From Sphingomonas sp. CL5.1 (GTDB lineage: Bacteria; Pseudomonadota; Alphaproteobacteria; Sphingomonadales; Sphingomonadaceae), in the NCBI RefSeq assembly GCF_013344685.1, contig NZ_CP050137.1, positions 1,740,001 to 1,804,000 on the forward strand: DNA of 64,000 bases, written 5' to 3'. The notes under the pieces were generated by a model. That model made no database searches and was not told where the DNA came from. It saw only the letters and a program-made list of their open reading frames with translations. Positions 16,650 through 33,592 of this stretch are shown one piece after another. The stretch's first letter is position 1. Every line of letters starts with the position of its first letter. The translations under genes were made by a program, and so were the position numbers.

Positions 16650-17837
16650 TCAGCTCACCGCCGCGATCGCCTGCGCGACATGCGCCACGTTGCGCGGCGT
16701 GAGGCCGGCGATGTTCGCGCGGCTCGATCCGGTGACATGGACATGCCATTCCTCGCGCAGCCGGCGCACCGCGTCGCCGGAGACGCCCAGCATCGCGAAC
16801 ATGCCGTGCTGGCCGGCGAGGAAGGAATAATCGCGCCGGTTGTTGCCGGAAAGCAGGCGGACCAGCTCGTGGCGCATGTCGCGGATGCGGTTGCGCATCG
16901 CCGCCAGCTCCTGCTCCCATGTCGCGCGCAGCGTCGCGTCGCCGAGGATGTGCGCGACGATTGCTGCGCCGTGATCGGGCGGCATCGAATAATTGGTGCG
17001 GACCACCGGCAGCAGGTTGCCGAGCGCGGTGTCCGCCTGTCCCGGATTGGCGCCGACCACGGTCAGCGCGCCGGTGCGCTCGCGATAGAGCGCGAAATTC
17101 TTCGAGCAGGAGCTGGCGACGATCATCTCCGGCAGCCGCTCGGCGAGGATCGCGAGGCCCTGCCGGTCCTCCTCCAGCCCTTCCGCGAAGCCGAGATAGG
17201 CGAGATCGACCAGCGGCGTCGCGCCGGAACGGGCGACCGCGTCCGCGATCTCCGCCCATTGCGCAGCGCTCGGGTCCGCGCCCGACGGATTGTGGCAGCA
17301 GCCGTGGAGCAGCACCGTGTCGCCGGCGCGCAGGCCGGCGAGCGCGCCCATCATCTCGTCCAGCTTCAGCGTGCCGGTGGCGATGTCGTAATAGGGATAG
17401 TTGACGATCTCGAACCCGGCGACGCCGAAGATCGCGGGGTGGTTCGCCCAGGTCGGATCGGGCAGGAAGATGCGCTTGCCGGTGCCGAACCTGCCGATGA
17501 AATCGGCCGCGACGCGCAGCGCCCCGGTGCCGCCGACCGTCTGGATCGTCCGCGCGCGGGCGTGCGCGTCGGAGCCTTCGCGGAACAGCAGGCCGCGCGT
17601 CCGCTCGTTATATTCGGGGTTGCCGGCCGAGGAGAGGTAGCGCTTGGTCGCCTGATTCTCCACCAGCGCGCGCTCCGCCGCCTTGACGGTCGGCAGGACG
17701 ATCACCTCGCCATGCTCGTCCTTGTAGATGCCGATGCCGAGATCGACCTTGTCGGGCGAGGGGTCTCGGGCAAAGGCCTGGGCCATTCCCAGGATCGGAT
17801 CTATCGGTGCTTCGGGCAGTTCGGCAAACATCGTCAT
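16650..17837 (-). CDS. Aromatic amino acid aminotransferase (class I PLP)
   Basis: This class I/II aminotransferase of 395 residues resembles TyrB/AspC, transferring the amino group between aromatic amino acids or aspartate and 2-oxoglutarate. The PLP-binding lysine lies in SSCSKNFALYRERTG, the substrate-carboxylate arginine in TGSSRANIAGL, and CCHNPSG carries the conserved asparagine. The ATG at 17837 follows GAGG by five bases; ATG 17831 is also possible. Two inverted repeats lie just upstream (17849-17885), suggesting its own regulated promoter. In the island it could feed tyrosine-derived phenylpyruvates towards phenylacetates, but the intervening steps are not in the window. Confidence 0.88.
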   Translation of the reverse strand: MTMFAELPEAPIDPILGMAQAFARDPSPDKVDLGIGIYKDEHGEVIVLPTVKAAERALVENQATKRYLSSAGNPEYNERTRGLLFREGSDAHARARTIQTVGGTGALRVAADFIGRFGTGKRIFLPDPTWANHPAIFGVAGFEIVNYPYYDIATGTLKLDEMMGALAGLRAGDTVLLHGCCHNPSGADPSAAQWAEIADAVARSGATPLVDLAYLGFAEGLEEDRQGLAILAERLPEMIVASSCSKNFALYRERTGALTVVGANPGQADTALGNLLPVVRTNYSMPPDHGAAIVAHILGDATLRATWEQELAAMRNRIRDMRHELVRLLSGNNRRDYSFLAGQHGMFAMLGVSGDAVRRLREEWHVHVTGSSRANIAGLTPRNVAHVAQAIAAVS

Positions 17838-17848
17838 TCCCACCTCAG

Positions 17849-17885
17849 GTATCGTTATCCGATACATTGGAACGTATTACGATAC
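17849..17885 (-). promoter_or_regulatory. Pair of inverted repeats upstream of the aminotransferase (candidate operator)
   Basis: A perfect 6-bp inverted repeat, GTATCG-N5-CGATAC, spans 17849-17865. A second related site, GTAT-TACG-ATAC, spans 17874-17885, about 25 bases further. Both lie in the 89-base gap ahead of the aminotransferase gene (minus strand), where an operator would sit. They differ from the TAACATG motif used elsewhere in the island. The cognate regulator is unknown. Confidence 0.5.
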
Positions 17886-17926
17886 AATATGCTTGTCGTG
17901 TTTTACTACGCGAGACGCGCGGGCGC

Positions 17927-18580
17927 TCAATATACGATGTCGGTCAGGCCGTGCGCCTCGGCGCCGGCACGCTCCCGCTCCAGCGCGCGTTGCAGCGGGG
18001 CGAGCTGGCGGACGCGCGCGGCATGATCGGTGATCGCGGGATAATCGGCCAGCGGAAAGCCGCCCTTCTGCGCGACGTTGCACAGCCAGAACAGATAGAC
18101 GTCGACGATCGACCAGCGCTCGCCATACCACCAGCGCCCGTCCACCCCGGCGGCGATGCGCGCGCATTCGGCGGCGAACTTGCGCATCCCGTCGGCCTTC
18201 ACGTCCGCCGGATCGCCGACAGTATATTTGTCCGGCGCGCGAATCTGCCGCATCGCCGGATGCAGCGTGGATGAGCACCACAAAAGGTCGCTGAGCGGTG
18301 CGATATCGCTCACCGGATCGCTGTCGTGCGGCAGCAGCCCCGCTGTCGGGAACAGCCGGTCGAGGAAGACGAGGATCGCGACGTTCTCGGTCATGATCCG
18401 CCCGTCGATCGCCAGCGCGGGCACCTTGCCCTTCGGATTGACGCGGGCGTAGTCGGCGGACTTCTGCTCGTCCGCGCGGATGTTCACCAGCCGGTCGCGA
18501 TAGCGCACGCCGGTCCCCTCCAGCGCGGTCATGGTGACGCGCGAGCAGGCGCCCGGAAAGAAATAGAGCGTCAGGTCCAT
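17927..18580 (-). CDS. Glutathione S-transferase family protein
   Basis: The 217-residue protein has a thioredoxin-like N-terminal domain (residues 1-80) and an all-helical C-terminal domain. The N-terminus reads MDLTLYFFPGACSRV, placing a cysteine at residue 12 where beta-class GSTs have theirs. The glutathione-binding KVPAL and TENVAIL elements are present. It is the last gene of the ring-cleavage operon, 43 bases after an aldehyde dehydrogenase. GSTs in sphingomonad aromatic clusters can act as isomerases, ether-cleaving or detoxifying enzymes; which applies here cannot be read from sequence. The ATG at 18580 is preferred because earlier in-frame codons overlap the neighbouring gene. Confidence 0.85.
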   Translation of the reverse strand: MDLTLYFFPGACSRVTMTALEGTGVRYRDRLVNIRADEQKSADYARVNPKGKVPALAIDGRIMTENVAILVFLDRLFPTAGLLPHDSDPVSDIAPLSDLLWCSSTLHPAMRQIRAPDKYTVGDPADVKADGMRKFAAECARIAAGVDGRWWYGERWSIVDVYLFWLCNVAQKGGFPLADYPAITDHAARVRQLAPLQRALERERAGAEAHGLTDIVY

Positions 18581-18623
18581 TGCCGGTTCCCCGAAAGCTG
18601 GGTCCGCCGCGCGGGCGGGAACG

Positions 18624-20033
18624 TCAAGCGCCGGCGGGAAGCCGGACGGTCTGGAGCTGCATATATTCGTCCAGCCCGTGCAGGCCGAACTCCACCCCGA
18701 TCCCCGATTGCTTCGCGCCGCCGAACGGCACGTCGGGCGATATCTTGGAATGGCTGTTGACCCATGCCGTGCCGCATTCCAGCCGCTGCGCAAGCTCGGC
18801 CGCGCGGCCGATATCGCTCGACCAGACCGATCCGCCGAGGCCGTTCTCGCTCGCATTGGCGCGCGCCAGCACGTCCTCCACGTCGCTGTAGCGGACGATC
18901 GGCAGGACCGGGCCGAACTGCTCCTCGTCGACGATGCGGTTGCCGTCGGTCACGTCGACCACCACGGAGAGCGGGAAGAAATAGCCCTCGCCGTCCAGCG
19001 GCTCGCCCCCCGCGAGGAAGCGGCCGCCCCGCGCGCGGGCGTCCTCCGCCAGCGAGCGGACGTAATCGAACTGGCGCCGGTTCTGGAGCGGCCCGTATTG
19101 CGTCGCGGGATCGGCGCCGGGGCCGACCTTCGCCGCCGCCGCCAGCGCCGCCACCTTCTCCGCCAGCGCGTCGTGCAGGCTGTCATGGACATAGACGCGC
19201 TTGATCGCCGCGCAGATCTGCCCGCTGTTGCCAAAGGCATATTGGAAGATCTGCGGCGCGATCGCCTCGACATCGGCGTCGGGAAGGACGATCGCCGCGT
19301 CGTTGCCGCCCAGCTCCAGCGTCAGCCGCTTCAGGTTGGCCGCGCCGTCGCGCATGATCGCGCGGCCGGTGGGGGTGGAGCCGGTGAACACCACCTTGTC
19401 GATATCGGGGTGCCTGGCGATGCCCGATCCGATCTCGATATCGCCGGTCACGACATTCCACACCCCGGCGGGCAGGTGCCGGGCGGCGATCTCCACCACG
19501 CGCAGCGTCGCCAGCGGCGTGTTGGGCGATGGCTTCTGCACCACGGTGTTGCCGGCGACCAGCGCCGGGATGACGTGCCAGATCGCGATCATCACCGGGA
19601 AGTTCCACGGCGTGATCGAGCCGACCACGCCCAGCGGCTTGCGGTGGATCTCGACCCGTCCGCCGTCCGCCTGCTCGATCCGCTCGACCGCCGGGCGGAA
19701 GCCGGCGGTGGTGCGCGTCCAGTGGATCGCGCCGTGGATCTCGCCCACCGCCGCGCGCAGCGGCTTGCCCTGCTCGCGCGAGAGCAGCGCGCCGAGTTCG
19801 TCGGCTTCGGCGGCCAGCGCGTCGGCAAAGGCGTGGATCATCTCCGCGCGGCGCTCGATCGGCGTCGCGGCCCAGCCGGGGAAGGCGGCGCGCGCGGCGG
19901 CGACCGCCTGGTCGAGCTGCTCGACGCTCGCCAGCGGGCATTGCGCGAACTCGGCGCCGGTGGCTGGGTCGATCACCGCGAAGCTGTCGGCGCAGGGCAC
20001 GGCCTTGCCGCCGATCGTCAGTGCGAAGGACAT
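18624..20033 (-). CDS. NAD(P)-dependent aldehyde dehydrogenase
   Basis: A 469-residue aldehyde dehydrogenase with ITPWNFPVMIAIWHVIPAL, the glutamate motif LTLELGGNDAA and the catalytic cysteine in GNSGQICAAIKR. The start at 20033 has GAGGAG six bases upstream. It is distinct from both HpaE and GabD in this island, so a third aldehyde substrate is implied. A phenylacetaldehyde-type compound upstream of the ring, or a second succinate-semialdehyde activity, are the plausible choices. It lies 20 bases after hpaI and 43 bases before the GST gene, firmly inside the operon. Confidence 0.87.
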   Translation of the reverse strand: MSFALTIGGKAVPCADSFAVIDPATGAEFAQCPLASVEQLDQAVAAARAAFPGWAATPIERRAEMIHAFADALAAEADELGALLSREQGKPLRAAVGEIHGAIHWTRTTAGFRPAVERIEQADGGRVEIHRKPLGVVGSITPWNFPVMIAIWHVIPALVAGNTVVQKPSPNTPLATLRVVEIAARHLPAGVWNVVTGDIEIGSGIARHPDIDKVVFTGSTPTGRAIMRDGAANLKRLTLELGGNDAAIVLPDADVEAIAPQIFQYAFGNSGQICAAIKRVYVHDSLHDALAEKVAALAAAAKVGPGADPATQYGPLQNRRQFDYVRSLAEDARARGGRFLAGGEPLDGEGYFFPLSVVVDVTDGNRIVDEEQFGPVLPIVRYSDVEDVLARANASENGLGGSVWSSDIGRAAELAQRLECGTAWVNSHSKISPDVPFGGAKQSGIGVEFGLHGLDEYMQLQTVRLPAGA

Positions 20034-20053
20034 GTTCGTCTCCTCTGTCATGT

Positions 20054-20812
20054 TCAGGCGCGGCACGTCCGCAGCAGCGCGCGTCCGCCGTTCGCCAGCA
20101 GCCCGATGTCGGTGCCGATCGAGACGAAGGCGAAGCCCTGCGCGGCGCGCGCGCGCGCGTCGTCCGCATCGAGCGCGAAGATGCCGGCGGGCTTGCCGGC
20201 GGCGCGGATCGCGGCGAAGGCGCGGTCGATCGCGGCCTGCACCTCCGGCGCGCGCGGGTTGCCGAGATGGCCGAGCGAGGCGGCGAGGTCGGCGGGGCCG
20301 ATGAACAGGCCGTCGACGCCCTCCACCGCCGCGATCTCCCCCACCGCGGCCAGCGCCGCGCCGCTCTCGATCTGCACGATGATGCCGACGCGCTCGTGCG
20401 CGGTGGCAAGATAGTCCGCCTGCGCGCCGAAGCGCGAGGCGCGGCTGGTCGAGCTGGCGACGCCCCGGATGCCGCGCGGCGGGAAGCGCGCGGCGGAGAC
20501 GATCGCCGCCGCCTGTTCGGCGCTCTCGACCATCGGGACCAGCAGCGTGCCGAAGCCGATGTCGAGATATTGCTTGATCGTCACCGCGTCGCCCACCGGC
20601 GGCCGCGCGATGACGTGGACCGGGTAGGGGGCGACCGCCTGCAACTGGCCGAGCAGGGTCTGCGCGGTGTTGGGCGCGTGCTCGCCGTCGAACAGCAGCC
20701 AGTCGAAGCCGAGCGTCGCGCAGATTTCCGCCGTATAATTGCAGGCGAGCGCCTGCCACAGCCCGAGCCGCGCGCCGGGCGCGGCGTCGATCCAGTCGCG
20801 GAACGTGCTCAT
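20054..20812 (-). CDS. hpaI: 4-hydroxy-2-oxoheptanedioate aldolase (HpcH/HpaI family)
   Basis: HpaI is a class II pyruvate aldolase that splits 4-hydroxy-2-oxoheptanedioate into pyruvate and succinate semialdehyde. The 252-residue protein has the family blocks: [13 protein letters not shown] with the catalytic histidine, VIARPP, the metal-binding glutamate in [10 protein letters not shown], and the aspartate in [10 protein letters not shown]. Its ATG overlaps the stop of hpaH (ATGA). The next downstream gene is an aldehyde dehydrogenase, and gabD lies further on in the island, both suitable for the aldehyde it produces. Confidence 0.92.
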
Positions 20813-21615
20813 GCGAAGCGCACCGAGATCGCGCCGAGCGGGCCGAAATCGACGTGGAAGGTGTCGCCCGCGCGCGCCGGCACCGGCGCGGTGAAGCTGC
20901 CGCCGAGGATGATCTCGCCCGCCTCCAGCGTCTCGCCATAGGGGTGCAGCTTGTTGGCCAGCCACGCCGGGCCGAGCGCGGGATGGCCCAGCACGGCGGC
21001 GGCGACTCCAGAATCCTCGATCACGCCGTTGCGGTAGATTAGCGCCGAGACCCAGCGCAGGTCGATATCGTGCGGTCGCATCGGCCGGCCGCCCAGCACC
21101 AGCCCGGCGTTGGCGGCATTGTCGGAAATGGTGTCGAACACCTTCCGCGTCGTGCCGGTGGCGCGATCGACCTGCTCGATCCGCGCGTCGATGATCTCGA
21201 TCGCCGGGACGATGTAATCCACCGCGTCGAGCACGTCGAACAGGGTGCAGTCGGGCCCACTGAGCGGCTGTTTCAGGCGGAAGGCCAGCTCCACCTCGAC
21301 GCGCGGCACGATGAAGCGGCCGATCGGGATGTCGCGCCCGTCGGGAAACAGCATGTCGTCAAGCAGCAGGCCGTAATCCGGTTCGTCGATGTTCGAGGAA
21401 CGCTGCATCGCGCGGCTGGTCAGCCCGATCTTGTGGCCGATAGCCTTCCGCCCCTCCGCGATCTTGCGCCGCGTCCAGGCGCGCTGGATCGCATAGGCGT
21501 CCTCGATCGCGATTTCGGGGTGGCGCAGCGAGAATTGCGCGATCTGCGCGCCGCCGCGCTCGACTTCGTGCAGCTCGTTCGCGAGCCGGTCGATCAGGTC
21601 GGGGGACAGGGCCAT
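20809..21615 (-). CDS. hpaH: 2-oxo-hept-3-ene-1,7-dioate hydratase
   Basis: HpaH hydrates the dienol/oxo-heptenedioate intermediate ahead of HpaI. The 268-residue protein belongs to the MhpD/HpaH hydratase family, related to the fumarylacetoacetase fold. It shows [14 protein letters not shown], then the metal-site stretch [24 protein letters not shown], and a C-terminal [20 protein letters not shown]. The start is ATG at 21615; an upstream frame to 21687 would overlap hpaF. Seven bases separate it from hpaF, and its stop overlaps hpaI. Confidence 0.93.
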
Positions 21616-21622
21616 CGTGATC

Positions 21623-22012
21623 TTACTTCTTCGCGGCGAGGCGCTGGTGGATGGTGTTGTGTTTCCACCCCTCCGCTTCCTCGACATAGAGGGAAAGGGC
21701 GAGCGGGCGGCGCTCGAACAGGTCGCCGAGGAACGCCCTCACCGCCGCGAACATCTGGTCGAAGAACGCTTTGCGGAACGCCGCGTCGCGGCCCGCGCCC
21801 ATCTTCACGTCGATGTTGATGAAGGCGTCGTCGGTGCCCTCGCCGTCCGCGATGACGTAATCGGTCAGGCGGATTGCGCGGACGCGGATGCCGCCGACCG
21901 GGAACATCCCGCCGGAGCGTTCGCGCATCTCCGCCGCGATCAGCGCGAGCAGGCCGGGCGGGTCGAACTCGCCCTCCAGGTTGGCGGTCCATTCGACGGT
22001 GGCGTGCGCCAT
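21623..22012 (-). CDS. hpaF: 5-carboxymethyl-2-hydroxymuconate delta-isomerase-like protein
   Basis: HpaF isomerises 5-carboxymethyl-2-hydroxymuconate in the homoprotocatechuate meta pathway. The 129-residue protein aligns along its length with the family: [19 protein letters not shown], then [15 protein letters not shown], then [11 protein letters not shown]. The family uses an N-terminal proline as catalytic base, and here the protein begins MAHATVEW (or MMAH from a GTG at 22015), so residue 2 is alanine. Either the start is misjudged, the chemistry tolerates alanine, or the protein has another role. Its ATG overlaps the ligB-like stop by one base, which supports the chosen start. Confidence 0.85.
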
Positions 22013-22830
22013 CACACGATCTCCGACCGGCCGATCACGCAGCCGGTGCTGAAGATCGGGATCGGCTGGTAGAAGTCGATATGCCCCTTGCCGCCAGCGG
22101 CGGCGGCGGCGGCGATCAGCGTGCGGATCTCATAGCCGCCCTGCCCGCCGTCGGCATAGGTTTCGACATCGGTATAGGCAGTCATCCGCGCCTCGTCGCC
22201 CGAGGCCCAGCGGGTGAGGAATTCGCGGTCCCACGCCTCGTTGACGCGCCCGCTGTCCGGCGTGCAGGGCCAGTGCGAGATGCCGCCGGTGCCGACCAGC
22301 GCGATCCGCCGGGGCACCTTGTCGGCGGCGCGGCGCAGCGCGCGGCCGAAGGCATAGGCGCGGTGCAGCGGGGTGAGCGGCGGCCCCTGGCAGTTGATGT
22401 TGGCCGGGATCACCGTCAGCTCGTTGTCGGGATCGAGGAAGTGCAGCGGCACCATGATGCCGTGGTCGAACTTCCATTCCTCGGCATAAGCGACGTCGAC
22501 CGTCTGCTGCACCTCGGCGATCAGCCGGCGCGACAGTTCGGCGTCGCCGCGGATGCGCTGGCGCGGGATGCGCAGCCATTCGGGGTCCTCGATCGGCCCG
22601 TCGTAATGGTCCGCTGCGCCGATCGCGTAGGCGGGCATGTTGTCCATGAAGAAATTGGCGAAATGCTCCGCCGCGACGACGATCAGCACCTCGGCGCCGG
22701 CCGCGCGGATCGCGTCGCGCATCCCGCGATAGGCGGCGTAATAGGGATCGCGCAGTTCGGGCGGCGCCATGTCCGCCCGCCCGGTGATGCCCGGCCCATG
22801 GCTGCAAATGCCGCTGAACACGAGGGTCAT
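22012..22830 (-). CDS. LigB-type extradiol ring-cleavage dioxygenase, catalytic subunit
   Basis: This class III extradiol dioxygenase beta subunit (272 residues) opens a catecholic ring next to the hydroxyls using Fe(II). Compared with LigB, the expected ligands are visible: H11 (GICSHGPG), H56 (AAEHFANFF) and E234 (GGYEIRTL); the catalytic/substrate histidines H123 (KFDHGIMVPL) and H186 (GTGGISHWP) are also present. The small LigA-like subunit gene precedes it with an ATGA overlap. The hpaF/G/H/I neighbours indicate homoprotocatechuate as substrate, in place of the single-subunit HpaD known from E. coli; protocatechuate or a methoxylated analogue remain possible. Confidence 0.9.
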   Translation of the reverse strand: MTLVFSGICSHGPGITGRADMAPPELRDPYYAAYRGMRDAIRAAGAEVLIVVAAEHFANFFMDNMPAYAIGAADHYDGPIEDPEWLRIPRQRIRGDAELSRRLIAEVQQTVDVAYAEEWKFDHGIMVPLHFLDPDNELTVIPANINCQGPPLTPLHRAYAFGRALRRAADKVPRRIALVGTGGISHWPCTPDSGRVNEAWDREFLTRWASGDEARMTAYTDVETYADGGQGGYEIRTLIAAAAAAGGKGHIDFYQPIPIFSTGCVIGRSEIV

Positions 22831-23153
22831 ACGCCTGCCACCTTGTCGTCATAGCCGGTCGTCATGGCATAGACGCCGGCGCGGATCGGGCCGTGCTGCC
22901 GCACGCCGTCGCGCATCCGCTGGAGATAATCGGCCCATTCGATCCGCATGAACGCGGCGAAGTGCATCAGGATCTGTCCGTTGACGCCGAGCACGTAGAG
23001 CAGCCCGATATCCGGCTCCAGCACCGCGCGGCGCTCCTCGCCGGTCAGCTCGTAACGGTCGGCGACGGCGGGGGCGTCGGCGGTGAAATCGGCCTGCAAC
23101 GCCGGATCGCGGTTGAGCTGATAGAGCAGCTTCTGGAGCTGGTAGAGGCTCAT
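22827..23153 (-). CDS. LigA-like small subunit of extradiol dioxygenase
   Basis: This 108-residue helical protein matches the protocatechuate 4,5-dioxygenase alpha-subunit family. The pattern is an N-terminal YQLQKLLYQLNRDPALQADF, then RYELTGEERRAVLEPDIGLLYVLGVN with the short hydrophobic VLGVNGQILMHFA stretch. LigA-type subunits cap the active site of the LigB partner and influence substrate choice. The ATG at 23153 overlaps the upstream hpaG stop, and its own stop overlaps the ligB-like ATG, so the three are tightly coupled. Confidence 0.88.
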   Translation of the reverse strand: MSLYQLQKLLYQLNRDPALQADFTADAPAVADRYELTGEERRAVLEPDIGLLYVLGVNGQILMHFAAFMRIEWADYLQRMRDGVRQHGPIRAGVYAMTTGYDDKVAGV

Positions 23154-23902
23154 GCCTGCAGCCCCACGCGATGCACGAGGCTGCCGACGCGCTCCACGGT
23201 GCAGGCCACCTCGTCGCCCGCGCGGACGAAATGGACGCCGTGCGGCGTGCCGGTCAGGATCATGTCGCCGGGCGAGAGCGTCATGAACCCGGAGAGATAG
23301 GTGATCAGCGCCGCTACCGAGAACACCATGTCGCCGGTCGAGCCGGACTGGACGGTCGCGCCGTTGACGGTGGTGGACAGCGCCAGCGCCTGCGGATCGC
23401 CGACATCCGCCGCGTCGACGATCCACGGGCCGATCGGGGTCAGCCCGTCGCGGTTCTTCACGCGGAGGTTGGGGCGATAGTAGTTCTCGAGGAACTCGCG
23501 CACCGCATAGTCGCAGGCGATCGTATAGCCGGCGACATAGTCGAGCGCCTCGGACGCGGCGACGCGGCGCGCGGTGCGGCCGATCACCGCGACCAGCTCG
23601 CATTCGGGGTGCATCTGGTCGGCATCGCGCGGCTTGGGCGAGACGCCGTCGTGGGCGACGAAGCCGTTCGGCCCTTTCAGGAACACCAGCGGCTGCGACG
23701 GCGGCTTGAAGCCCAGCTCGACCGAATGGTCGGCATAGTTCAGCCCGAGCGCGAACACCGTCGCGCCCGGCGTGACCGGCGGCAGCAGCGTGGCGGCATC
23801 CCAGCCCACCGTGGACCCGTCGGCCAGCGCGATCGCCCGCTCATCGGGCGAGACGACGCCCCATTGCTCGCGCCCCGCATGGATCAGCCTGACGCGCTTC
23901 AT
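23150..23902 (-). CDS. hpaG2: HpaG decarboxylase/isomerase half (fumarylacetoacetate hydrolase family), copy 2
   Basis: This 250-residue protein has the fumarylacetoacetase C-terminal fold. It corresponds to one half of the bifunctional HpaG, which decarboxylates and isomerises the oxidised meta-cleavage product. Visible are VFALGLNYADH, PLVFLKGPN, the metal-site HPECELVAVIG stretch, CDYAVREF, and DMILTGTPHG near the C-terminus. The companion half is encoded immediately upstream with an overlap (ATG at 23902 against a stop at 23899), so a single bifunctional HpaG is split into two adjacent genes here. Its stop overlaps the LigA-like start. Confidence 0.9.
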   Translation of the reverse strand: MKRVRLIHAGREQWGVVSPDERAIALADGSTVGWDAATLLPPVTPGATVFALGLNYADHSVELGFKPPSQPLVFLKGPNGFVAHDGVSPKPRDADQMHPECELVAVIGRTARRVAASEALDYVAGYTIACDYAVREFLENYYRPNLRVKNRDGLTPIGPWIVDAADVGDPQALALSTTVNGATVQSGSTGDMVFSVAALITYLSGFMTLSPGDMILTGTPHGVHFVRAGDEVACTVERVGSLVHRVGLQA

Positions 23903-24504
23903 CGCGCCTGCTCCGCGACGAGCGACACGGCTAGCGGGGCGAAGCCCTCCGCCGTCACCTCGATCGTGTCGCCCGCCCGCGCGGCCGGCGCGTCGCCGGC
24001 GATGCCGCACAGCAGCAGGTCGCCGGGCGCGAGCGTCATGAAGGTCGCGATCTCGCGTTCCAGCGCGGCGGGATCGCGCACCAGCCGCGACAGGTTCCAG
24101 CGGTGGCGCTCCACGCCGCCGACGCGCGTCACGATCTCGATCGACGCGAGATCGGCGGGCAGGGCGGTCGCCGGGCCGAGCGGCAGGAAGCCGTCGCGGC
24201 AGCGTTCGGCGATCGCCGGGCGGTAGAAGCTGGCGTGGGGCACGAACAGATCGATAGCGAGCCGCGCGACCGGCGGCCCGGCCAATGCGCGCTCGATCGC
24301 GATAGTTGCGCCCACCGCAACTTCGGCGATGTCGCCGGGCAGGGCCACCGCCGAACCGTTCGCGGCGAAGCAATTGCGCGGCTTGATATAGAGAATCGGC
24401 GCGACCGGCGGCCTGCCATAGGGCTTCTCGCCCAGCGCATCTCCCAGCGCCGCCACCTGCTCGCGGTCGTTCAGCGCCACGCCATAGGCTGTCCCGCCGA
24501 TCAT
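23899..24504 (-). CDS. hpaG1: HpaG half (fumarylacetoacetate hydrolase family), copy 1
   Basis: This 201-residue protein resembles the N-terminal half of HpaG. It shows GTAYGVALNDREQVAAL, PILYIKPRNCFA, an ATIAIER metal-site region, and the late FMTLAPGDLLLCGIAGD. It is shorter and more diverged than the next gene, and the fumarylacetoacetase metal ligands are less obvious, so it may be mainly structural or carry only one of the two activities. It is the first gene of the minus-strand operon; its start faces hpaE across a 125-base divergent promoter region carrying the two direct repeats. Confidence 0.85.
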   Translation of the reverse strand: MIGGTAYGVALNDREQVAALGDALGEKPYGRPPVAPILYIKPRNCFAANGSAVALPGDIAEVAVGATIAIERALAGPPVARLAIDLFVPHASFYRPAIAERCRDGFLPLGPATALPADLASIEIVTRVGGVERHRWNLSRLVRDPAALEREIATFMTLAPGDLLLCGIAGDAPAARAGDTIEVTAEGFAPLAVSLVAEQAR

Positions 24505-24536
24505 GCCTTCCTCTCGTTCGTCATGCCCGTGACTTA

Positions 24537-24612
24537 ATATTTAACATGATAAGGGTCAAGTCGCCGCTTTGGGTTTGACGGCCGAAGCCGGAGGATATAT
24601 TTAACACGATAA
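24537..24612. promoter_or_regulatory. Direct repeats in divergent hpaG1/hpaE promoter (candidate operator)
   Basis: Two 16-bp copies, ATATTTAACATGATAA at 24537-24552 and ATATTTAACACGATAA at 24597-24612, differ at one base and begin exactly 60 bp apart. They are AT-rich islands in very GC-rich surroundings and lie between the divergent starts at 24504 and 24630. The core TAACATGATA resembles the palindrome at 28882. Their placement fits a regulator controlling both arms of the pathway. Confidence 0.6.
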
Positions 24613-24629
24613 TCAATTGTGGAGTCCTT

Positions 24630-26138
24630 ATGCAGCCTGATCGTCGGAAGCTCGCCACGGAGGCGATCGCGCCGTTCACCCGGCAACCGCTCGGCCATTT
24701 CGTCGACGGCGCTTCGGTGGCAGGCGAAGGGGTGGCGTTTCCGGTCCATGATCCCTCGACCGGCGCGGTGCTGGGCGAGGCATGCGACGCGAGCGAGGCG
24801 GAGCTGAACGCGGCGGTGGCGGCGGCGAAGCGGGCCTTCCCGGCGTGGGCGGCGCTGGCCGGCGACAGGCGCAAGGCGGTCCTCCACCGCATCGCCGACC
24901 TGATCGAGGCGCGCGCGGAGGAGATCGCGGCGGTGGAATGCCTCGACGCCGGCCAGGCATGGCGTTTCATGTCCAAGGCGGCGCTGCGCGGGGCGGAGAA
25001 CTTCCGCTTCTTCGCCGATCGCGCGCCCGCCGCGCGCGACGGGCAGGCGCTGCCGTCCGGCGAGCATCTCAACTACACCTCGCGCTATCCGATCGGCCCG
25101 GTCGCCGTCATCACGCCGTGGAACACGCCGTTCATGCTCTCGACGTGGAAGATCGCCCCGGCGCTGGCGGCGGGCTGCACCGTCGTCCACAAGCCGGCGG
25201 AATGGTCGCCCTATTCGGCGCGCCTGCTGGTCGAGATCGCGCATGAGGCCGGGCTGCCGGCGGGCGTGTTCAATTCGGTCAACGGGCTGGGCGAGACGAC
25301 CGGCCGGCGACTGACCGAGCATCGCGACATCAAGGCGATCGCCTTCGTCGGCGAATCCAGGACCGGCAGCGCGATCATGCGGCAGGGATCGGAGACGCTG
25401 AAGCGCGTCCATTTCGAGCTGGGCGGCAAGAATCCGGTGATCGTGTTCGACGACGCCGATCTCGATCGCGCGCTCGATGCGGTGGTGTTCATGATCTACT
25501 CGCTCAACGGCCAGCGCTGCACCTCGTCGTCGCGGCTGCTGGTGCAGCGGTCGATCCACGACGCCTTCGTCGCGAAGCTCGCGGAGCGCGTCCGCCAGCT
25601 CAAGGTGGGGGACCCGTTCGACCCCGCCACCGAGGTCGGGCCGCTGATCCACGAACGCCATCTCGCCAAGGTGACGAGCTACGCCGATGTCGCGGCGGCC
25701 GACGGCGCGACGATCGCGGTGGGCGGGCAGAGGCTCGACCGGCCGGGCTATTTCTATGGCCCCACGCTCTATGCCGGCGCGGATGTCGGAATGCGCATCG
25801 CGCAGGAGGAGATTTTCGGCCCGGTCCTCACCGTCATCCCGTTCGACGACGAGGCGGATGCGATCGCCACGGCCAATGCGGTCGATTACGGCCTGGCCGG
25901 CTATCTCTGGACGAACGATGTCGGCCGCGCGCTGCGTGTGTCCGATGCGCTGGAGGCCGGGATGATCTGGGTCAACAGCGAGAACGTCCGCCACCTGCCG
26001 ACCCCGTTCGGCGGGGTGAAGGCCAGCGGCATCGGCCGCGACGGCGGCGACTGGAGCTTCGATTTCTACATGGAGACGAAGAACGTCGCGCTGGCCAAGG
26101 GCCACCACAAGATCCAGCGGCTCGGCGTCGCGGGCTGA
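24630..26138 (+). CDS. hpaE: 5-carboxymethyl-2-hydroxymuconate semialdehyde dehydrogenase
   Basis: HpaE oxidises the ring-cleavage semialdehyde to 5-carboxymethyl-2-hydroxymuconate with NAD. The 502-residue aldehyde dehydrogenase has ITPWNTPFMLSTWKIAPAL, the glutamate motif HFELGGKNPV and the catalytic cysteine in NGQRCTSSSRL. The latter two closely follow HpaE rather than GabD. The ATG at 24630 has GGAG five bases upstream. It is divergent from the hpaG1 operon and leads a plus-strand arm with the Rieske oxygenase, MFS and TonB receptor genes. Assignment to HpaE rests on motifs plus the surrounding hpaF-I genes. Confidence 0.9.
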   Translation: MQPDRRKLATEAIAPFTRQPLGHFVDGASVAGEGVAFPVHDPSTGAVLGEACDASEAELNAAVAAAKRAFPAWAALAGDRRKAVLHRIADLIEARAEEIAAVECLDAGQAWRFMSKAALRGAENFRFFADRAPAARDGQALPSGEHLNYTSRYPIGPVAVITPWNTPFMLSTWKIAPALAAGCTVVHKPAEWSPYSARLLVEIAHEAGLPAGVFNSVNGLGETTGRRLTEHRDIKAIAFVGESRTGSAIMRQGSETLKRVHFELGGKNPVIVFDDADLDRALDAVVFMIYSLNGQRCTSSSRLLVQRSIHDAFVAKLAERVRQLKVGDPFDPATEVGPLIHERHLAKVTSYADVAAADGATIAVGGQRLDRPGYFYGPTLYAGADVGMRIAQEEIFGPVLTVIPFDDEADAIATANAVDYGLAGYLWTNDVGRALRVSDALEAGMIWVNSENVRHLPTPFGGVKASGIGRDGGDWSFDFYMETKNVALAKGHHKIQRLGVAG

Positions 26139-26231
26139 CAAGGACGGTACGGGCGGCCAGACGCGCCGCCCGCCGACAACGACACATAACGAAACGGGGC
26201 GCGCAAAGACGCCCGACGCGGAGACGATGGA

Positions 26232-27410
26232 ATGAAGGATATGCTGAGCGCCTATGCGCTGCCGGCGCCCACGTTCGACGAGGCGCTGACGCTGGTCGGG
26301 CGCGGCACGCCGATGGGCGAGCTTCTGCGCCGCTACTGGCATCCCGTCGCGCTGAGCGCCGATGCGACCGAGACGCCGCGCATCGTCACCGCGCTGGGCG
26401 AGCGGCTGGTGCTGTTCCGTGACGGCGCGGGGCGACCAGGACTGCTTCACGAACGCTGCGCGCATCGCGGCACCTCGCTCTATTACGGCAAGGTCGACGA
26501 TCGCGGCATCCGCTGCTGCTATCACGGCTGGCTGTTCGACGTGGAGGGCAAGTGCCTCGAGCAGCCTTGCGAGCCGGCCCGCGGCGCGCGGACGGCGGCG
26601 CGGGTGCGCCAGCCGGGCTATCCGGTACAGGAGCTGTACGGGCTGATCTTCGCCTATATGGGGCCGATCGAGCGGATGCCGCTGCTGCCGCGCTACGACG
26701 TGCTGGAGGAGCTTGGGCCGGGCGAGTTCATCGAGACGGACGACACCAGCCTCGGCAGCGGCGGGCCGGCGATCGTGCCGTGCAACTGGCTCCAGCATTT
26801 CGAGAATGTCATGGACCCGTTCCATGTGCCGATCCTCCACGGCAGCTTCAGCGGCAACCAGTTCGTCGCGCAGATGGCGCTGATGCCCGAGGTGGTGTTC
26901 GAGGAGACGGAGCGCGGCATCCAGAGCACGCAGGTCCGCGATCTCGGCGAGGGCAAGGTGCACCGCCGCGTCACCGAGGCGATGCTGCCGACGATCCGCG
27001 CGGTGGCGAACCCGCGCGCGGAGAATGTCGGCTCCTGCTCGCTGCTCGGCTGGGTGCTGCCGATCGACGACACCAGCTTCCGCATCTATTCCGCCGGTCG
27101 CGTGACGGAGAAGGGCGCGCTGGCGAAGATCCGCTCGCACTTCAACGGCAAGCTCTGGCACGAACTGACCGAGGAGGAGCATCGCGCGCTCCCCGGCGAT
27201 TACGAAGCGCAGGTGGGGCAGGGGGCGATCACCGCGCATTCGGAGGAGCATCTCGTCACCTCCGACAAGGGGATCGGCATGTTGCGCCGGCTGTACCGGC
27301 GGCAGGTCGAACTGGTCGCGGCCGGGGGCGATCCGGCGGGCACGCGCTTCGGCGCTGCCGATCCGCTCGTCCGGCTCGCCGCCGGCACCGCGATCGTCGC
27401 GGCGGGCTGA
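26232..27410 (+). CDS. Rieske non-heme iron oxygenase, large (alpha) subunit
   Basis: This 392-residue protein is a Rieske oxygenase alpha subunit of the single-component-oxygenase group that includes vanillate and phenoxybenzoate oxygenases. The Rieske [2Fe-2S] ligands are C76-x-H78 and C95-x2-H98. The catalytic iron motif is E191-x3-D195-x2-H198-x4-H203, with N185 and H189 nearby. No ferredoxin reductase is encoded next to it, so it must borrow electrons from elsewhere. Its position upstream of homoprotocatechuate cleavage suggests it makes the catechol, by O-demethylation (for example of homovanillate) or hydroxylation. That substrate is inference. Confidence 0.9.
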   Translation: MKDMLSAYALPAPTFDEALTLVGRGTPMGELLRRYWHPVALSADATETPRIVTALGERLVLFRDGAGRPGLLHERCAHRGTSLYYGKVDDRGIRCCYHGWLFDVEGKCLEQPCEPARGARTAARVRQPGYPVQELYGLIFAYMGPIERMPLLPRYDVLEELGPGEFIETDDTSLGSGGPAIVPCNWLQHFENVMDPFHVPILHGSFSGNQFVAQMALMPEVVFEETERGIQSTQVRDLGEGKVHRRVTEAMLPTIRAVANPRAENVGSCSLLGWVLPIDDTSFRIYSAGRVTEKGALAKIRSHFNGKLWHELTEEEHRALPGDYEAQVGQGAITAHSEEHLVTSDKGIGMLRRLYRRQVELVAAGGDPAGTRFGAADPLVRLAAGTAIVAAG

Positions 27411-27416
27411 GCCGGC

Positions 27417-28757
27417 GTGGCGAGCGTGATCGAAACCGGCGACGCAGCCGCCGCGCCGGGCCGCAGCTATGCCTATGGCTGGTACACGGCGGCGGTGCTG
27501 ATGGTCGCCTATACCTTCTCTTTCCTCGACCGTCAGATCCTCAACCTGATGGTCGGGCCGATCAAGGCGGACCTGCACCTGACCGACACGCAGTTCGCGC
27601 TGCTGACCGGCGGGGCGTTCGGCATCTTCTACACGGTGATGGGGCTGCCGATCGGCTGGCTGGCCGATCGCTATCCGCGCACGCGCATCATCACCTGCGG
27701 CGTGGCGATGTGGAGCGTCGCCACCACCGCCTGTGCGTTCGTGCGCACCTTTCCGGCGCTGATGGCGGCGCGGATCGGCGTGGGGGTGGGCGAGGCGACG
27801 CTTTCGCCCTCCGCCTATTCGCTGCTCAGCAACAGCTTCGACCGCTCCCGGCTGCCGCGTGCGATGAGCGTCTATTCGGTCGGCATCTATATCGGCGCCG
27901 GGCTGGCGCTGATCGTCGGCGGGTCGGTGGTGGAGGCGGTCGCGCGGACGCCGAGCGTGATGCTGCCGCTGCTCGGCGAGATCCATTCGTGGCACGCGGT
28001 GTTCCTGGTTATCGGTCCGCCGGGGCTGCTCGTCGCCTTGTGGGTGGCGACGCTGCGCGAGCCGGGGCGGCAGGCGAAAACCGGCGACGTCGCGGCGAGC
28101 TTCTCGATCGCGCGCATCTGGCGCTTCCTCGCGTCATGGCCGGCAATGTCGGTCGCGCTGTTCCTGGGATCGGCGATGCTGGCGATCATGAGCTATATGG
28201 ACGCCTGGTATCCCGAGCTGTTCATCCGCACTTTCCACTGGAGCGTGGGCGAGACGGGGCATGTCAACGGCCTCGCCTCGCTGACCGCCGGGCCGCTCGG
28301 GATGCTCTCGGCGGGCTGGCTCTCCAGCCGGATGATCGCGCGCGGCCGTGTCGACGCCTGCCTGCGGCTGGCGATCCACGCGGCGATCGGGATGAGCATC
28401 ACCGCCACTGTGATGCCGCTGCTGCCGCAGGCCTGGGCGATGGCGGCGATGCTGTGGCCGATCAAGTTCCTCGGCGGCTTCATCCCGGTGCTGATCCCCT
28501 CCGCGATCCAGATGGTCGCGCCGGGCAATATGCGCGCGCAATTGAGCGCGGTGTTCGGGCTGACCGTGGGCATCCTCGCCGTCACGCTCGGGCCGGTGCT
28601 GCCCGCGCTGATCGGCGACTATGTGCTGCGCGACGAGGGCGCGCTCCACCTGTCGCTGTCGATCGCGGCGGCGATTGTCGGCCCGGTGGCGACGGTGCTG
28701 TTGTGGTGCGGGCTGCGCCAGTTCCGCGCCTGCCTGAGCGAGCGGCCGGAGACCTGA
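27417..28757 (+). CDS. MFS transporter (spinster-like, aromatic acid uptake candidate)
   Basis: This 446-residue major facilitator has 12 predicted membrane helices. It shows the MFS A-motif as GWLADRYPRTR in the first cytoplasmic loop and the spinster-like FSFLDRQILNLMVGPIK and RIGVGVGEATLSPSAYS stretches. Such transporters are frequent beside TonB receptors in sphingomonad aromatic clusters. The GTG start lies six bases after the Rieske stop, so they are co-transcribed. It is likely the inner-membrane step following the TonB receptor. The direction and substrate are not shown by the sequence. An intrinsic terminator follows directly. Confidence 0.87.
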   Translation: MASVIETGDAAAAPGRSYAYGWYTAAVLMVAYTFSFLDRQILNLMVGPIKADLHLTDTQFALLTGGAFGIFYTVMGLPIGWLADRYPRTRIITCGVAMWSVATTACAFVRTFPALMAARIGVGVGEATLSPSAYSLLSNSFDRSRLPRAMSVYSVGIYIGAGLALIVGGSVVEAVARTPSVMLPLLGEIHSWHAVFLVIGPPGLLVALWVATLREPGRQAKTGDVAASFSIARIWRFLASWPAMSVALFLGSAMLAIMSYMDAWYPELFIRTFHWSVGETGHVNGLASLTAGPLGMLSAGWLSSRMIARGRVDACLRLAIHAAIGMSITATVMPLLPQAWAMAAMLWPIKFLGGFIPVLIPSAIQMVAPGNMRAQLSAVFGLTVGILAVTLGPVLPALIGDYVLRDEGALHLSLSIAAAIVGPVATVLLWCGLRQFRACLSERPET

Positions 28758-28770
28758 GCTTCAACGACTG

Positions 28771-28805
28771 AAAAAGCGCGTGCCAGCCCTGGGCGCGCTT
28801 TTTCC
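28771..28805 (+). terminator. Intrinsic terminator after hpaE-Rieske-MFS operon
   Basis: A 10-bp stem, AAAAAGCGCG (28771-28780) with CGCGCTTTTT (28794-28803), encloses a loop with further CC/GG pairing and is followed by T-rich sequence. It lies 14 bases after the MFS stop. Because it separates the MFS gene from the TonB receptor gene, the receptor probably has its own promoter. Confidence 0.8.
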
Positions 28806-28881
28806 TTGTTTCGTTATTCGCGCCGTTGTTTCATTCCTCGCAACAAATCGCGAAACCGCGTTGCGCGCGCAGGGCATAAGA

Positions 28882-28893
28882 ATAACATGTTAT
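28882..28893. promoter_or_regulatory. Perfect palindrome ATAACATGTTAT upstream of TonB receptor (candidate operator)
   Basis: A perfect 12-bp palindrome lies 61 bases upstream of the receptor start, in the promoter-sized gap after the terminator. The core TAACATGTTA differs at one base from TAACATGATA in the hpaG1/hpaE divergent promoter, which suggests one regulator acts at both places. Confidence 0.55.
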
Positions 28894-28953
28894 GTAATCC
28901 GGTCGCGTCCAACCCCCGCATGGCGTCCGGTTTTCATGGAGGGAGGGGATAAG

Positions 28954-31230
28954 GTGGGCAAGATGAAGATCAAGGTAGCAATGGCTGCGCCTTCGATGGT
29001 GATGGCGGCCGTTCTCGGCATGGCGCCGGCGCAGGCGATGGCCGTCCCGGCGGCGGACGCGGATTCCGCCGTCCAGTCCGGCGGCAACGGCGGCGTGCCC
29101 GATGTCGTGGTCACCGCCAACAAGCGCGAGCAGAAGTTGCAGGAGACGCCGACCAGCATCGGCGTCATTACCTCCGACGATCTGGTCAAGCGCCAGATCA
29201 CCGATATCGAGCAGGTGACGCGCAACATCGCCGGCCTCAACGTCATCAACGCGGGGCCGGGCCAGAACACGCTGATGATCCGCGGCCTCGTCGGCGCGGG
29301 CGAGTCCACCGTCGGCCTCTATTACGACAATCTGCCGACCGCCGGCACCGGCGACAGCGCCACCACGGCCGCCGGCCGCCAGACCGATTTCCTCGTCTAT
29401 GACGTGCAGCGCGTCGAGGTGCTGCGCGGCCCGCAGAGCACGCTCTACGGTTCGTCGGCGCTGGCCGGCGTCGTGCGCGTGCTGTCCAACCCGGCCAAGC
29501 TGGGCGTGACCGAAGGCCGCGTCGACCTCGAAGGCTCGCTCGTCGAGCATGGCCAGGCCGGCTATTCGGTGAAGGGCGTGGTCAACGTGCCGCTCGGCGA
29601 TTCGGTCGCCTTCCGCGTCGTCGGCTACGGCGTCCACACGCCGGGTTTCATCGACAACATCTCCTTCGGCAAGGAGAATGTGAACAGCGCGAACACCTGG
29701 GGCTTCCGCTGGAACGGCACCTATCAACTCGGGCCGGACACCACCGCCACCACCCAGCTCTACGTGCAGGACATGAAGTCCAACGGCCAGCCGTATGAAT
29801 GGTCGCACGTCTCGACGATCGGCGGCGTGACGCTACCGGCCGCGGGCGACCTGCAATCACGCACGCAGAGCCGCGAGCCGTATCACGATCGCTCGATCCT
29901 GACCGGCCTGACGCTCGAGCATCAGTTCTCGAACATGACGCTGACCTTCACCCAGTCGTATCAGCGTCGCCGCAATGAGAGCTACACGGACCAGCAGGGC
30001 CTGCCGCTGTTCTTCGGTTTTCTGCAGAGCATCGACGCGTTCCCGGATATCACGCTGCCGACCGCGATCACCTTCCGCTCGGCGCAGAAATTGACGATGT
30101 GGAATTCCGAGCTTCGTCTCGCCACCAACTTCGATGGCCCGCTCAACGTCATCGTCGGCGGCATCTACCAGAACCGCCGCATCCAGATCGACAACAGCTT
30201 CGTCGATGTGGACACGACGACCGGCAAGCCGATCACGGCCAATCCATTGTGGTATGAGCGCGCCGGCGATTTTCGCCTGACGCAATGGGCCGGGTTCGGC
30301 GAGGCGACGCTGAAGCTGTCGGACAAATTCTCGGTCCTCGGCGGCATCCGCGTGTTCCAGAACAGCCGCCACGACGTCGCCACCTCGATCGTTCCTTTCC
30401 TGCGCCTCGGCGCGAACGGCGCGCCGGACGACGTGCGCAGCAAGGAAAGCAAGGCGATCTACAAGTTCGAGGCGGACTATAAGCCGACCAGCGACATCAT
30501 GCTCTACGCTTCGGCGTCGCAAGGCTATCGCGCCGGCGGCACGATCGTCCGCGTCGTGCCGGAGCTGCCGCCTGCCTACGGCCCTGACTATACGTGGAAT
30601 TTCGAGGCCGGCGCCAAGACCGACTGGCTCAACCGCGCGCTTCAGCTCAATATCGCGCTGTATCGCGTCAACTGGTACGACACGCAGATCTCGGGCGACT
30701 TCTTCAACGGGTCGTTCTCCGGCGTGCTCAACTGCTCGGGCCTGTGCGCCCGTTCGCAGGGCGTCGAGTTCGATCTCACCGCGCGTCCGGTTCGCGGCCT
30801 GGAGCTGACCGCCAGCGGCACGGTGTTCAAGGCCAAGTGGTTGAAGGACCAGCCGGCGATCTCCGGCTCGCCGGTGGCGGGCACGCAGTTCGCCAACACG
30901 CCGACCTTCACCCTCAACGGCTCGGCGGCGTACACATGGGAGCTTGGCGGCGACAATTCGCTCGAACTGCGCGTCGATGCCCAGCATCGCGGGAAGTACG
31001 CCTATATGGACTATCGCCCGCAGTATAACCTGATGGCGCCCGAGGCGTTCACCCTGGTCAATGCGGCGATCACGCTGGCGCATCAGGACGCGTGGAGCGC
31101 CGCGTTGTTCGCGCGCAACCTGTTCGACGAGCGGGCGCAGATCAACTCGATCGCCGACTCGGTCACGCCTTATCAGACGCTGATCGCGCAGCCGCGCACC
31201 ATCGGCGTGCAGTTCGGCGTGAAGTTCTGA
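28954..31230 (+). CDS. TonB-dependent outer-membrane receptor
   Basis: This receptor of about 758 residues should import a substrate across the outer membrane with TonB energy. A signal peptide is present (AAPSMVMAAVLGMAPAQAMA), then a TonB-box-like DVVVTANKREQKLQETP, a plug domain (TRNIAGLNVINAGPGQNTLM; VEVLRGPQSTLYGSSALAG), and a beta-barrel ending in phenylalanine (QFGVKF). GTG at 28954 is chosen because GGAGGGG lies five bases upstream; ATG 28936 and ATG 28963 are alternatives. It follows the MFS gene but has its own promoter region with a palindrome. In this island an aromatic or lignin-derived acid is the likely cargo, not a siderophore; this is inference from context. Confidence 0.92.
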   Translation: MGKMKIKVAMAAPSMVMAAVLGMAPAQAMAVPAADADSAVQSGGNGGVPDVVVTANKREQKLQETPTSIGVITSDDLVKRQITDIEQVTRNIAGLNVINAGPGQNTLMIRGLVGAGESTVGLYYDNLPTAGTGDSATTAAGRQTDFLVYDVQRVEVLRGPQSTLYGSSALAGVVRVLSNPAKLGVTEGRVDLEGSLVEHGQAGYSVKGVVNVPLGDSVAFRVVGYGVHTPGFIDNISFGKENVNSANTWGFRWNGTYQLGPDTTATTQLYVQDMKSNGQPYEWSHVSTIGGVTLPAAGDLQSRTQSREPYHDRSILTGLTLEHQFSNMTLTFTQSYQRRRNESYTDQQGLPLFFGFLQSIDAFPDITLPTAITFRSAQKLTMWNSELRLATNFDGPLNVIVGGIYQNRRIQIDNSFVDVDTTTGKPITANPLWYERAGDFRLTQWAGFGEATLKLSDKFSVLGGIRVFQNSRHDVATSIVPFLRLGANGAPDDVRSKESKAIYKFEADYKPTSDIMLYASASQGYRAGGTIVRVVPELPPAYGPDYTWNFEAGAKTDWLNRALQLNIALYRVNWYDTQISGDFFNGSFSGVLNCSGLCARSQGVEFDLTARPVRGLELTASGTVFKAKWLKDQPAISGSPVAGTQFANTPTFTLNGSAAYTWELGGDNSLELRVDAQHRGKYAYMDYRPQYNLMAPEAFTLVNAAITLAHQDAWSAALFARNLFDERAQINSIADSVTPYQTLIAQPRTIGVQFGVKF

Positions 31231-33576: not shown

Positions 33577-33592
33577 TTTACATGAATGTCAA
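33577..33592 (-). promoter_or_regulatory. Inverted repeat between phhA and the globin gene (candidate operator)
   Basis: TTTACAT-GA-ATGTCAA is an imperfect palindrome with six of seven arm bases matching. It overlaps the phhA stop codon and lies about 20 bases ahead of the globin start. Read on the minus strand it contains TTGACA, a good -35 hexamer. It could give the globin gene separate regulation, but nothing identifies a regulator. Confidence 0.4.

Follow-up and report, generated by a model that had tools for sequence, protein, structure and literature searches.

The hpa/hpc genes of E. coli and other bacteria encode the meta-cleavage pathway of homoprotocatechuate (HPC). HPC can also be produced by a Rieske enzyme, 4-chlorophenylacetate 3,4-dioxygenase, which displaces a ring substituent. 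We analyzed a 64,000-nucleotide stretch of the Sphingomonas sp. CL5.1 chromosome (here called the window; C1:1740001-1804000 of a 4.57-Mb genome in two contigs), which carries a gene island for HPC meta-cleavage with a LigA-LigB dioxygenase and a PobA-like Rieske oxygenase. The kind of pathway is known; new is that its oxygenases come from families not usual for it. In our favored reading, which we hold with evenly divided confidence, the island makes up most of a single regulon, in which a side chain would be trimmed, the Rieske enzyme would open an ether to yield HPC, and LigAB would cleave the ring.

The transcription order on the minus strand is hpaG1, hpaG2, ligA, ligB, hpaF, hpaH, hpaI, a second aldehyde dehydrogenase gene (ALDH1), a glutathione S-transferase-like gene (GST), an aminotransferase gene, an IclR regulator gene and gabD (24504 down to 14303); on the plus strand, hpaE is followed by the genes for the Rieske protein, a major facilitator superfamily (MFS) transporter and a TonB-dependent receptor (24630 to 31230). 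All of these are open reading frames at the places listed in Table 1. HpaE, the C-terminal-type HpaG subunit (HpaG-C), HpaH and the succinate-semialdehyde dehydrogenase (SSADH) exceed curated cut-offs and the isomerase HpaF exceeds the Pfam cut-off, whereas the N-terminal-type HpaG subunit (HpaG-N), HpaI and, with the equivalog model, HpaF score under theirs. A preliminary description of positions 16650 to 31230 had listed a lower HPC pathway, and with these scores we regard its presence as very probable. The genes named there were all found, with gabD and the IclR gene lying just outside that interval; the aminotransferase, the GST and the second aldehyde dehydrogenase had been left out of its reasoning. 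The lack of hpaBC and HpaD that it reported was confirmed for the whole genome: PF03241 (HpaB) gave no match, with 4 of 14 controls positive and the Acinetobacter-type hydroxylase outside the search, and TIGR02298 (HpaD_Fe) gave 36 and 22 bits at best against a cut-off of 316, VOC-type HPC dioxygenases being outside the search. An HpaB encoded elsewhere in the genome and a single-subunit HpaD as the ring-cleavage enzyme were therefore rejected.

Domains of LigA (PF07746) and LigB (PF02900) are encoded side by side. The window LigB scores 36 bits with the HpaD model and stays under the cut-offs of the other named models as well (class III extradiol 123 bits, cut-off 290; gallate 93, cut-off 412; protocatechuate alpha/beta 87, cut-off 837). 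Its residues His11, His56, His123, His186 and Glu234 (window numbering), which we take to be active-site residues, are invariant in 30 relatives and align with LigB and MhpB. The best PDB match of its structure model (mean pLDDT 88.8) was chain B of LigAB (1bou; E 1.3e-18, TM 0.84), followed by DesB and MhpB, with the HpaD-type structure 8iq8 at rank 21 (E 3.0e-13, TM 0.79). In a tree whose references were annotated LigB and MhpB relatives and no HpaD, the 28 LigB proteins from HPC cores form one clade (support 100/98); the reference branches are long. AromaDeg splits LigB into protocatechuate and homoprotocatechuate families, as far as the available part of its description goes (PMC4250580). 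The window protein scores with the protocatechuate family of this type although it is set in a homoprotocatechuate operon. If the Hpa enzymes are to use the ring-opened product, pathway chemistry calls for a cut at the 2,3 bond, and LigAB is predicted to open HPC there. The known LigAB cut, at 4,5, would yield the wrong isomer for HpaE, so the regiochemistry would be of mechanistic interest if LigAB cleaves HPC. The LigA-LigB pair amid Hpa genes supports the LigAB-type cleavage of HPC that had been proposed for the putative enzyme.

To see how often this arrangement occurs, a genome collection was scanned with the window LigB, giving 370 places that encode relatives; the best 80 loci (L numbers below), many of them short, were fetched, and genes were counted at scores of at least 40 bits, losses at contig ends included. 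In 79 of the 80, ligA adjoins ligB in the same orientation, the exception (L056) ending at a contig edge, and the Hpa genes are frequent (HpaG-C-like in 64, HpaH in 60, HpaE in 59, HpaF in 56, HpaI in 50). LigA-LigB with Hpa genes recurs across several proteobacterial classes and Acidimicrobiia; the arrangement is thus not due to chance, and the LigAB/Hpa core is widespread and coherent. HpaB was present in 9 of 30 LigB-bearing genomes tested (from 30 of the 80 loci), Delftia and Variovorax among them, showing that the core also occurs in HpaB-carrying genomes. None of the plasmid matches to LigB (190 records) reached 60% identity, and no annotated Hpa genes were present in the two larger neighborhoods examined. 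Near the core of four loci (L040, L046, L066, L070), aldoxime dehydratase-like and nitrilase-like genes were seen, with models under cut-off where scanned (L040, L066); their input is suggested to be an arylacetaldoxime or arylacetonitrile.

Among the named relatives found, Sphingomonas sp. 67-36 came closest (98% identity for LigB, 99% for the Rieske protein). The arm of receptor, MFS, Rieske and hpaE genes is kept in four Sphingomonas loci (L009-L012), so the gene order is shared with other sphingomonads. This conservation, a single run of the genes in genome G220 and the operator-like sites that link the promoters bear out the earlier view that Rieske protein, transporter and receptor belong to the same system. 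In a sample of 298 family genomes, ligB was found in five and the Rieske gene (E <= 1e-100) in eight, the strain's own genome included; the three genomes with a Rieske protein of at least 74% identity, again including its own, are all among the five with ligB. Among the 80 loci, a Rieske-like open reading frame of any kind occurs in 20, and one with at least 300 bits to the window protein in 10.

The nearest characterized relative of the Rieske protein that we saw is Sca of Sphingobium baderi SC-1 (53% identity over 375 amino acids); the plasmid gene was equated with sca, with which it agrees in strain, in length (1,230 bp) and in being on a plasmid. In the available portion of the report on this enzyme, E. 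coli producing Sca degraded 3-phenoxybenzoate and phenol was set free; the protein is 96% identical to PobA (PMC11026547). A midpoint-rooted tree of 46 rows, 15 of them every eighth of 120 listed homologues, placed the window protein in a clade of 27 rows (96/95), together with an Aminobacter protein and 10 further Rieske proteins whose loci or genomes carry HPC genes. The fork uniting this clade with its Sca-holding sister has support of 90/84. That sister group (84/80) consists of Sca, a near-identical Rhodococcus copy, five family relatives from genomes with no ligB match at E <= 1e-80, and two Parvibaculum proteins whose genes adjoin the LigAB core. Being the sister of the Sca group, the enzyme is PobA-like and not established as PobA. 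The preliminary description had counted placement with another substrate group against itself, and the tree comes close to this, with the clade beside and not inside the Sca/PobA group. PF00848 finds eight other Rieske genes in the genome and misses this one. No Rieske reductase (FNR/VanB type) is encoded in the island, the sole genome match being a reductase-like protein at 173 kb. On a plasmid of Rhodococcus pyridinivorans Y6 (L091), a 99.5% copy of Sca and a VanB-type reductase are encoded twice around an IS1071 transposase gene. Plasmid pLRE138 of Rhodococcus erythropolis R138 (L093) encodes a 42% Rieske relative with a VanB-type reductase, a thiamine pyrophosphate (TPP) protein, purU, folP and aminomethyltransferase genes, a set that suggests one-carbon handling.

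A different substrate had been proposed at first, a methoxylated phenylacetate such as homovanillate or its kin, from which, after import, the Rieske enzyme would remove the O-methyl group as formaldehyde and produce HPC. Support for this comes from other loci: the eight weaker Rieske reading frames scanned (L022, L024, L025, L026 with two, L027, L044, L075) are all VanA-type (VanA_C 38-143 bits, cut-off 23.5) and flank the same LigAB core in seven loci, L025 and L027 also encode a glutathione-dependent formaldehyde dehydrogenase (TIGR02818 604 and 610 bits, cut-off 544), and L027 holds in addition a relative of the window Rieske protein (56% identity). The window protein itself only just reaches the VanA_C cut-off (23.5 bits) over 55 of 193 positions, a marginal and partial match on which its assignment as VanA was rejected, and its closest characterized relative seen is a diaryl-ether enzyme. 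There is no formaldehyde gene among the island genes, and the aminotransferase, TPP enzyme and ALDH1 are left unexplained. We therefore do not favor a methoxy substrate and consider it unlikely for the window; the VanA-flanked loci appear to be the better homovanillate candidates. Resting cells with Rhodococcus VanAB did not attack homovanillate in the part of the study available (PMC9867520), so VanA-type kinship alone would not settle the substrate.

Further genes point to steps upstream of the ring. Six Aminobacter plasmids carry a Rieske gene for a 69% identical protein, and on the one examined, pMET1, it is accompanied by genes for a VanB-type reductase, a TPP enzyme, an aromatic aminotransferase and an IclR regulator. 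This regulator scores 295-313 bits with the IclR proteins of six loci, L009 included, and the window IclR is related to it. In Novosphingobium mangrovi (L017) and in G220 the Rieske gene is followed by genes for an aldehyde dehydrogenase, a TPP enzyme, an MFS transporter and a TonB-dependent receptor, a run that in L017 comes after the LigAB core, all in one orientation. An aminotransferase, a TPP enzyme and ALDH1 are encoded next to ligB in Sphingopyxis (L014, L067) and G253. The genome studied here encodes a decarboxylase-like TPP enzyme, 67% identical to that of Aminobacter, at 4.206 Mb, 2.44 Mb from the island and thus beyond the reach of the preliminary description. It belongs to a second island (L103; Table 1). 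In Sphingomonas sp. QA11 this second island borders the first on the receptor side, and 17.7 kb separate the two groups of operator sites; in Sphingopyxis terrae it comes immediately after the first. Together, aminotransferase, ALDH1 and TPP enzyme suggest a substrate with an amino-acid-type side chain. A flavonoid route was considered for the second island; the available text of a paper on an isoflavone cluster did not contain the words Rieske, thiamine or fumarylacetoacetate.

The same three enzymes could also form an Ehrlich-type route from tyrosine to 4-hydroxyphenylacetate, which the Rieske protein would then 3-hydroxylate in place of HpaBC. This would fit a genome with no HpaB match and a phenylalanine 4-monooxygenase gene 2.4 kb past the receptor gene (window 33589-34455, minus strand; TIGR01267 337 bits). 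HgmA is encoded elsewhere in the genome, however, so tyrosine probably has a homogentisate route, the kinship with Sca/PobA points to ether cleavage, and we know of no Rieske 4-hydroxyphenylacetate hydroxylase. Taken together, this substitution is distinctly unlikely.

The divergent hpaG/hpaE promoter holds two near-identical sites in the window and in the six loci compared by eye. A relaxed pattern, TTAWCRTGTTAWRTWT, has three exact matches in the 4.57-Mb genome, two between hpaG and hpaE and one directly before the TPP gene. A search of eight related island-carrying genomes found 15 exact sites in seven of them and none for the reversed pattern. Each of the 15 either belongs to an hpaG/hpaE promoter or precedes hpaE, the TPP gene (G298, G299) or the Rieske gene (G220). 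Eight fetched sites were checked against proteins; the remaining seven either pair with a checked site no more than 85 bases away or match in coordinates the sites mapped in L010 and L012. An exact site is also present in 13 of the 80 LigB loci, compared to none in 20 shuffles (mononucleotide shuffles only). MarR-family genes, HpaR-like kin included, are found in 29 of the 80 loci; the member encoded in the second island, 2.4 Mb away, is the one scored against the HpaR model and reaches 119 bits at a cut-off of 121.2. Since the motif core is palindromic and adjoins an HpaR-like gene in some loci, an HpaR-like repressor is the likely binder, and it probably governs these transcripts through the candidate operator. 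The motif offers a quick handle, as all exact matches in the nine genomes searched lie at these genes.

Combining these data, we propose the following route. The substrate would enter via the TonB-dependent receptor and the MFS protein. An amino-acid or keto-acid side chain would be converted to the arylacetate by aminotransferase, TPP decarboxylase and ALDH1, and the PobA-like Rieske enzyme would attack the ring carbon bearing an aryloxy or alkoxy oxygen; the product would be an unstable hemiacetal-type compound collapsing to HPC. LigAB would then open the ring, and the Hpa enzymes with SSADH would deliver pyruvate and succinate. Trimming could come before or after ether cleavage. Of the parts of this route, the Rieske protein as the HPC-forming step is fairly probable; for an ether other than methoxy our judgment is evenly balanced, and a side chain of the amino-acid or keto-acid kind has about an even chance of being right. 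The true starting compound is a testable question, its assignment from gene content being unproven. A bolder version, which we regard as a long shot, takes a diaryl-ether amino acid or keto acid, such as an isodityrosine-type cross-link of plant cell walls, to be trimmed and split by the Rieske enzyme in such a way that both halves become HPC, with a LigAB of switched specificity and the second island handling side products; searches of the open-access literature on related topics turned up no bacterial route of this type, with no search aimed at isodityrosine itself.

Several observations weigh against the proposed route. The characterized single-subunit protocatechuate 4,5-dioxygenase PcaA was inactive on HPC, according to the available part of its description (PMC8431788). 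The substrate of the PobA-like Rieske protein is not fixed by 53% sequence identity, and two of the five LigB-bearing genomes in the 298-genome sample have no Rieske match at E <= 1e-100. The 31-kb stretch of pMET1 contains no LigAB/Hpa core and has other lower-pathway genes, with a LigB-like protein of another branch and a flavin adenine dinucleotide (FAD) monooxygenase, so the Rieske enzymes may in some cases form a product other than HPC. Aminotransferase and TPP steps are tied to the island by gene neighborhood and the shared motif alone, with the TPP gene 2.44 Mb away, and these enzymes may serve another purpose. Concerning the motif, G301 has no exact site and only ones with two or three mismatches, and the window has no site with up to three mismatches before the receptor gene. 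A strict pattern built from hpaG/hpaE promoters (up to two mismatches) has three genome matches, the two in the window and one at 568648, and does not reach the TPP site. Variants from other species and the TPP site, at three mismatches, had been seen before the relaxed pattern was drawn up, which makes its count in the own genome circular in part. The eight-genome search, for which the pattern was kept fixed, is the better test, although these genomes were chosen for carrying the island and most of their island loci had already been looked at when the pattern was drafted.

LigAB and the Hpa-like enzymes might act on another catechol, for instance a substituted HPC, the HPC label being approximate. 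The scores of HpaG-N, HpaI and the HpaF equivalog model under their cut-offs and the distance of LigB from HpaD would agree with this, but HpaE, HpaG-C and HpaH pass equivalog cut-offs and HpaR-like regulators are found near the core in the 29 loci mentioned above, which makes another catechol improbable. That the Rieske, MFS and receptor genes are mere neighbors with an unrelated job, as the 70 of 80 LigB loci (many with short flanks) without such a Rieske gene at 300 bits or more might suggest, is very improbable, given that the gene occurs in 10 of these loci though rare in the family (8 of 298 genomes), that all three genomes with the closest Rieske proteins carry ligB, and that an operator-like site directly precedes the Rieske gene in G220.

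The coordinates of the features are given in Table 1. The GST gene is present in L009-L012 and weak in L045 and L068 among the 80 loci. A short-chain dehydrogenase/reductase gene at 31368-32051 was rejected as a member of the system, as it is found in L009 and was not seen beside the receptor gene in L010-L012.

Table 1. Features of the island, with positions in the window (second island: genome position)
Feature	Position	Strand	Evidence
gabD, succinate-semialdehyde dehydrogenase (lower-pathway end)	14303..15775	-	TIGR01780 698 bits, cut-off 646; start picked by eye
IclR-family regulator	15819..16565	-	PF09339 49 bits
Aromatic amino acid aminotransferase, TyrB/AspC type	16650..17831	-	NF006719 507 bits, cut-off 377
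Glutathione S-transferase-like protein (GST)	17927..18580	-	PF02798 44.5 bits; maiA model 76, below cut-off 171
Second aldehyde dehydrogenase (ALDH1), proposed arylacetaldehyde dehydrogenase	18624..20033	-	PF00171 510 bits; HpaE model 330, below cut-off 638
hpaI-like aldolase	20054..20812	-	TIGR02311 314 bits, below cut-off 369
hpaH hydratase	20809..21615	-	TIGR02312 439 bits, cut-off 352
hpaF, 5-carboxymethyl-2-hydroxymuconate isomerase (CHMI)	21623..22012	-	PF02962 122 bits, cut-off 26.5; NCBIfam equivalog 67, below 215
ligB-like ring-cleavage dioxygenase, catalytic subunit	22012..22830	-	PF02900 121.5 bits
ligA-like small subunit	22827..23153	-	PF07746 49 bits
hpaG C-terminal-type isomerase/decarboxylase subunit	23150..23902	-	TIGR02303 319 bits, cut-off 276
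hpaG N-terminal-type subunit	23899..24504	-	TIGR02305 143 bits, below cut-off 229
Operator-like 16-mer TTATCATGTTAAATAT	24537..24552	-	exact match to TTAWCRTGTTAWRTWT; conserved in orthologous promoters
Operator-like 16-mer TTATCGTGTTAAATAT	24597..24612	-	exact match to TTAWCRTGTTAWRTWT; conserved in orthologous promoters
hpaE, 5-carboxymethyl-2-hydroxymuconate semialdehyde dehydrogenase	24630..26138	+	TIGR02299 755 bits, cut-off 638
PobA-like Rieske oxygenase alpha subunit	26232..27410	+	PF00355 59 bits; 53% identity to Sca; tree
MFS transporter	27417..28757	+	best model TIGR00893 103 bits, below cut-off 395
TonB-dependent receptor	28936..31230	+	PF00593 106.5, PF07715 74 bits; orthologue in L009-L012
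Second island (L103): TPP enzyme, MFS, HpaR-like MarR, two FAH proteins, FAD monooxygenase, LigB-like protein, LigXa_C Rieske, IclR	C1:4206212-4216000		

Compared to the hpa/hpc systems, the island is alike in HpaE, HpaF, HpaG, HpaH, HpaI and SSADH, and an HpaR-like regulator is present in the genome and in many homologous loci. It differs in having LigA and LigB for HpaD, a split HpaG, no HpaB, and a Rieske oxygenase and TonB-dependent receptor alongside. With the LigAB protocatechuate 4,5-dioxygenase it shares the two subunits, the LigB fold and the conserved His and Glu residues, whereas the window LigB belongs to a clade of its own tied to Hpa genes and would have to cut at the 2,3 bond for HpaE and not at 4,5. 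If LigAB cleaves HPC, the family models applied here overlook the function of a widespread group of ring-cleavage enzymes (370 relatives in one genome collection). VanA vanillate O-demethylase is likewise a Rieske oxygenase, with VanA-type genes near the LigAB core in other loci, but the match of the window protein to VanA_C is marginal and partial. The proposed Rieske step would resemble that of 4-chlorophenylacetate 3,4-dioxygenase, in which HPC is likewise formed with loss of a ring substituent. In the open-access literature, as far as its text was available, we found no description of a LigAB-type HPC dioxygenase or of a PobA-type Rieske enzyme in an HPC cluster. A salicylate-induced cluster of S. 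wittichii RW1 (Swit_3083-3096) contains genes annotated as OPET decarboxylase, HpaI-type aldolase and unnamed extradiol dioxygenase in the available part of the report (PMC3425912), and judged by this description it may be the same core. PobA/Sca phenoxybenzoate dioxygenase, as described in the accessible text (PMC11026547), is 53% identical to the window protein and belongs to the same broad Rieske group as a sister clade; Sca acts on phenoxybenzoates, has an adjacent reductase and no Hpa genes in a 17-kb stretch, in contrast to the window Rieske gene, which has no adjacent reductase. If the proposed route is true, the PobA-like Rieske clade gains a natural role, next to a relative, Sca, known from the pyrethroid residue 3-phenoxybenzoate.

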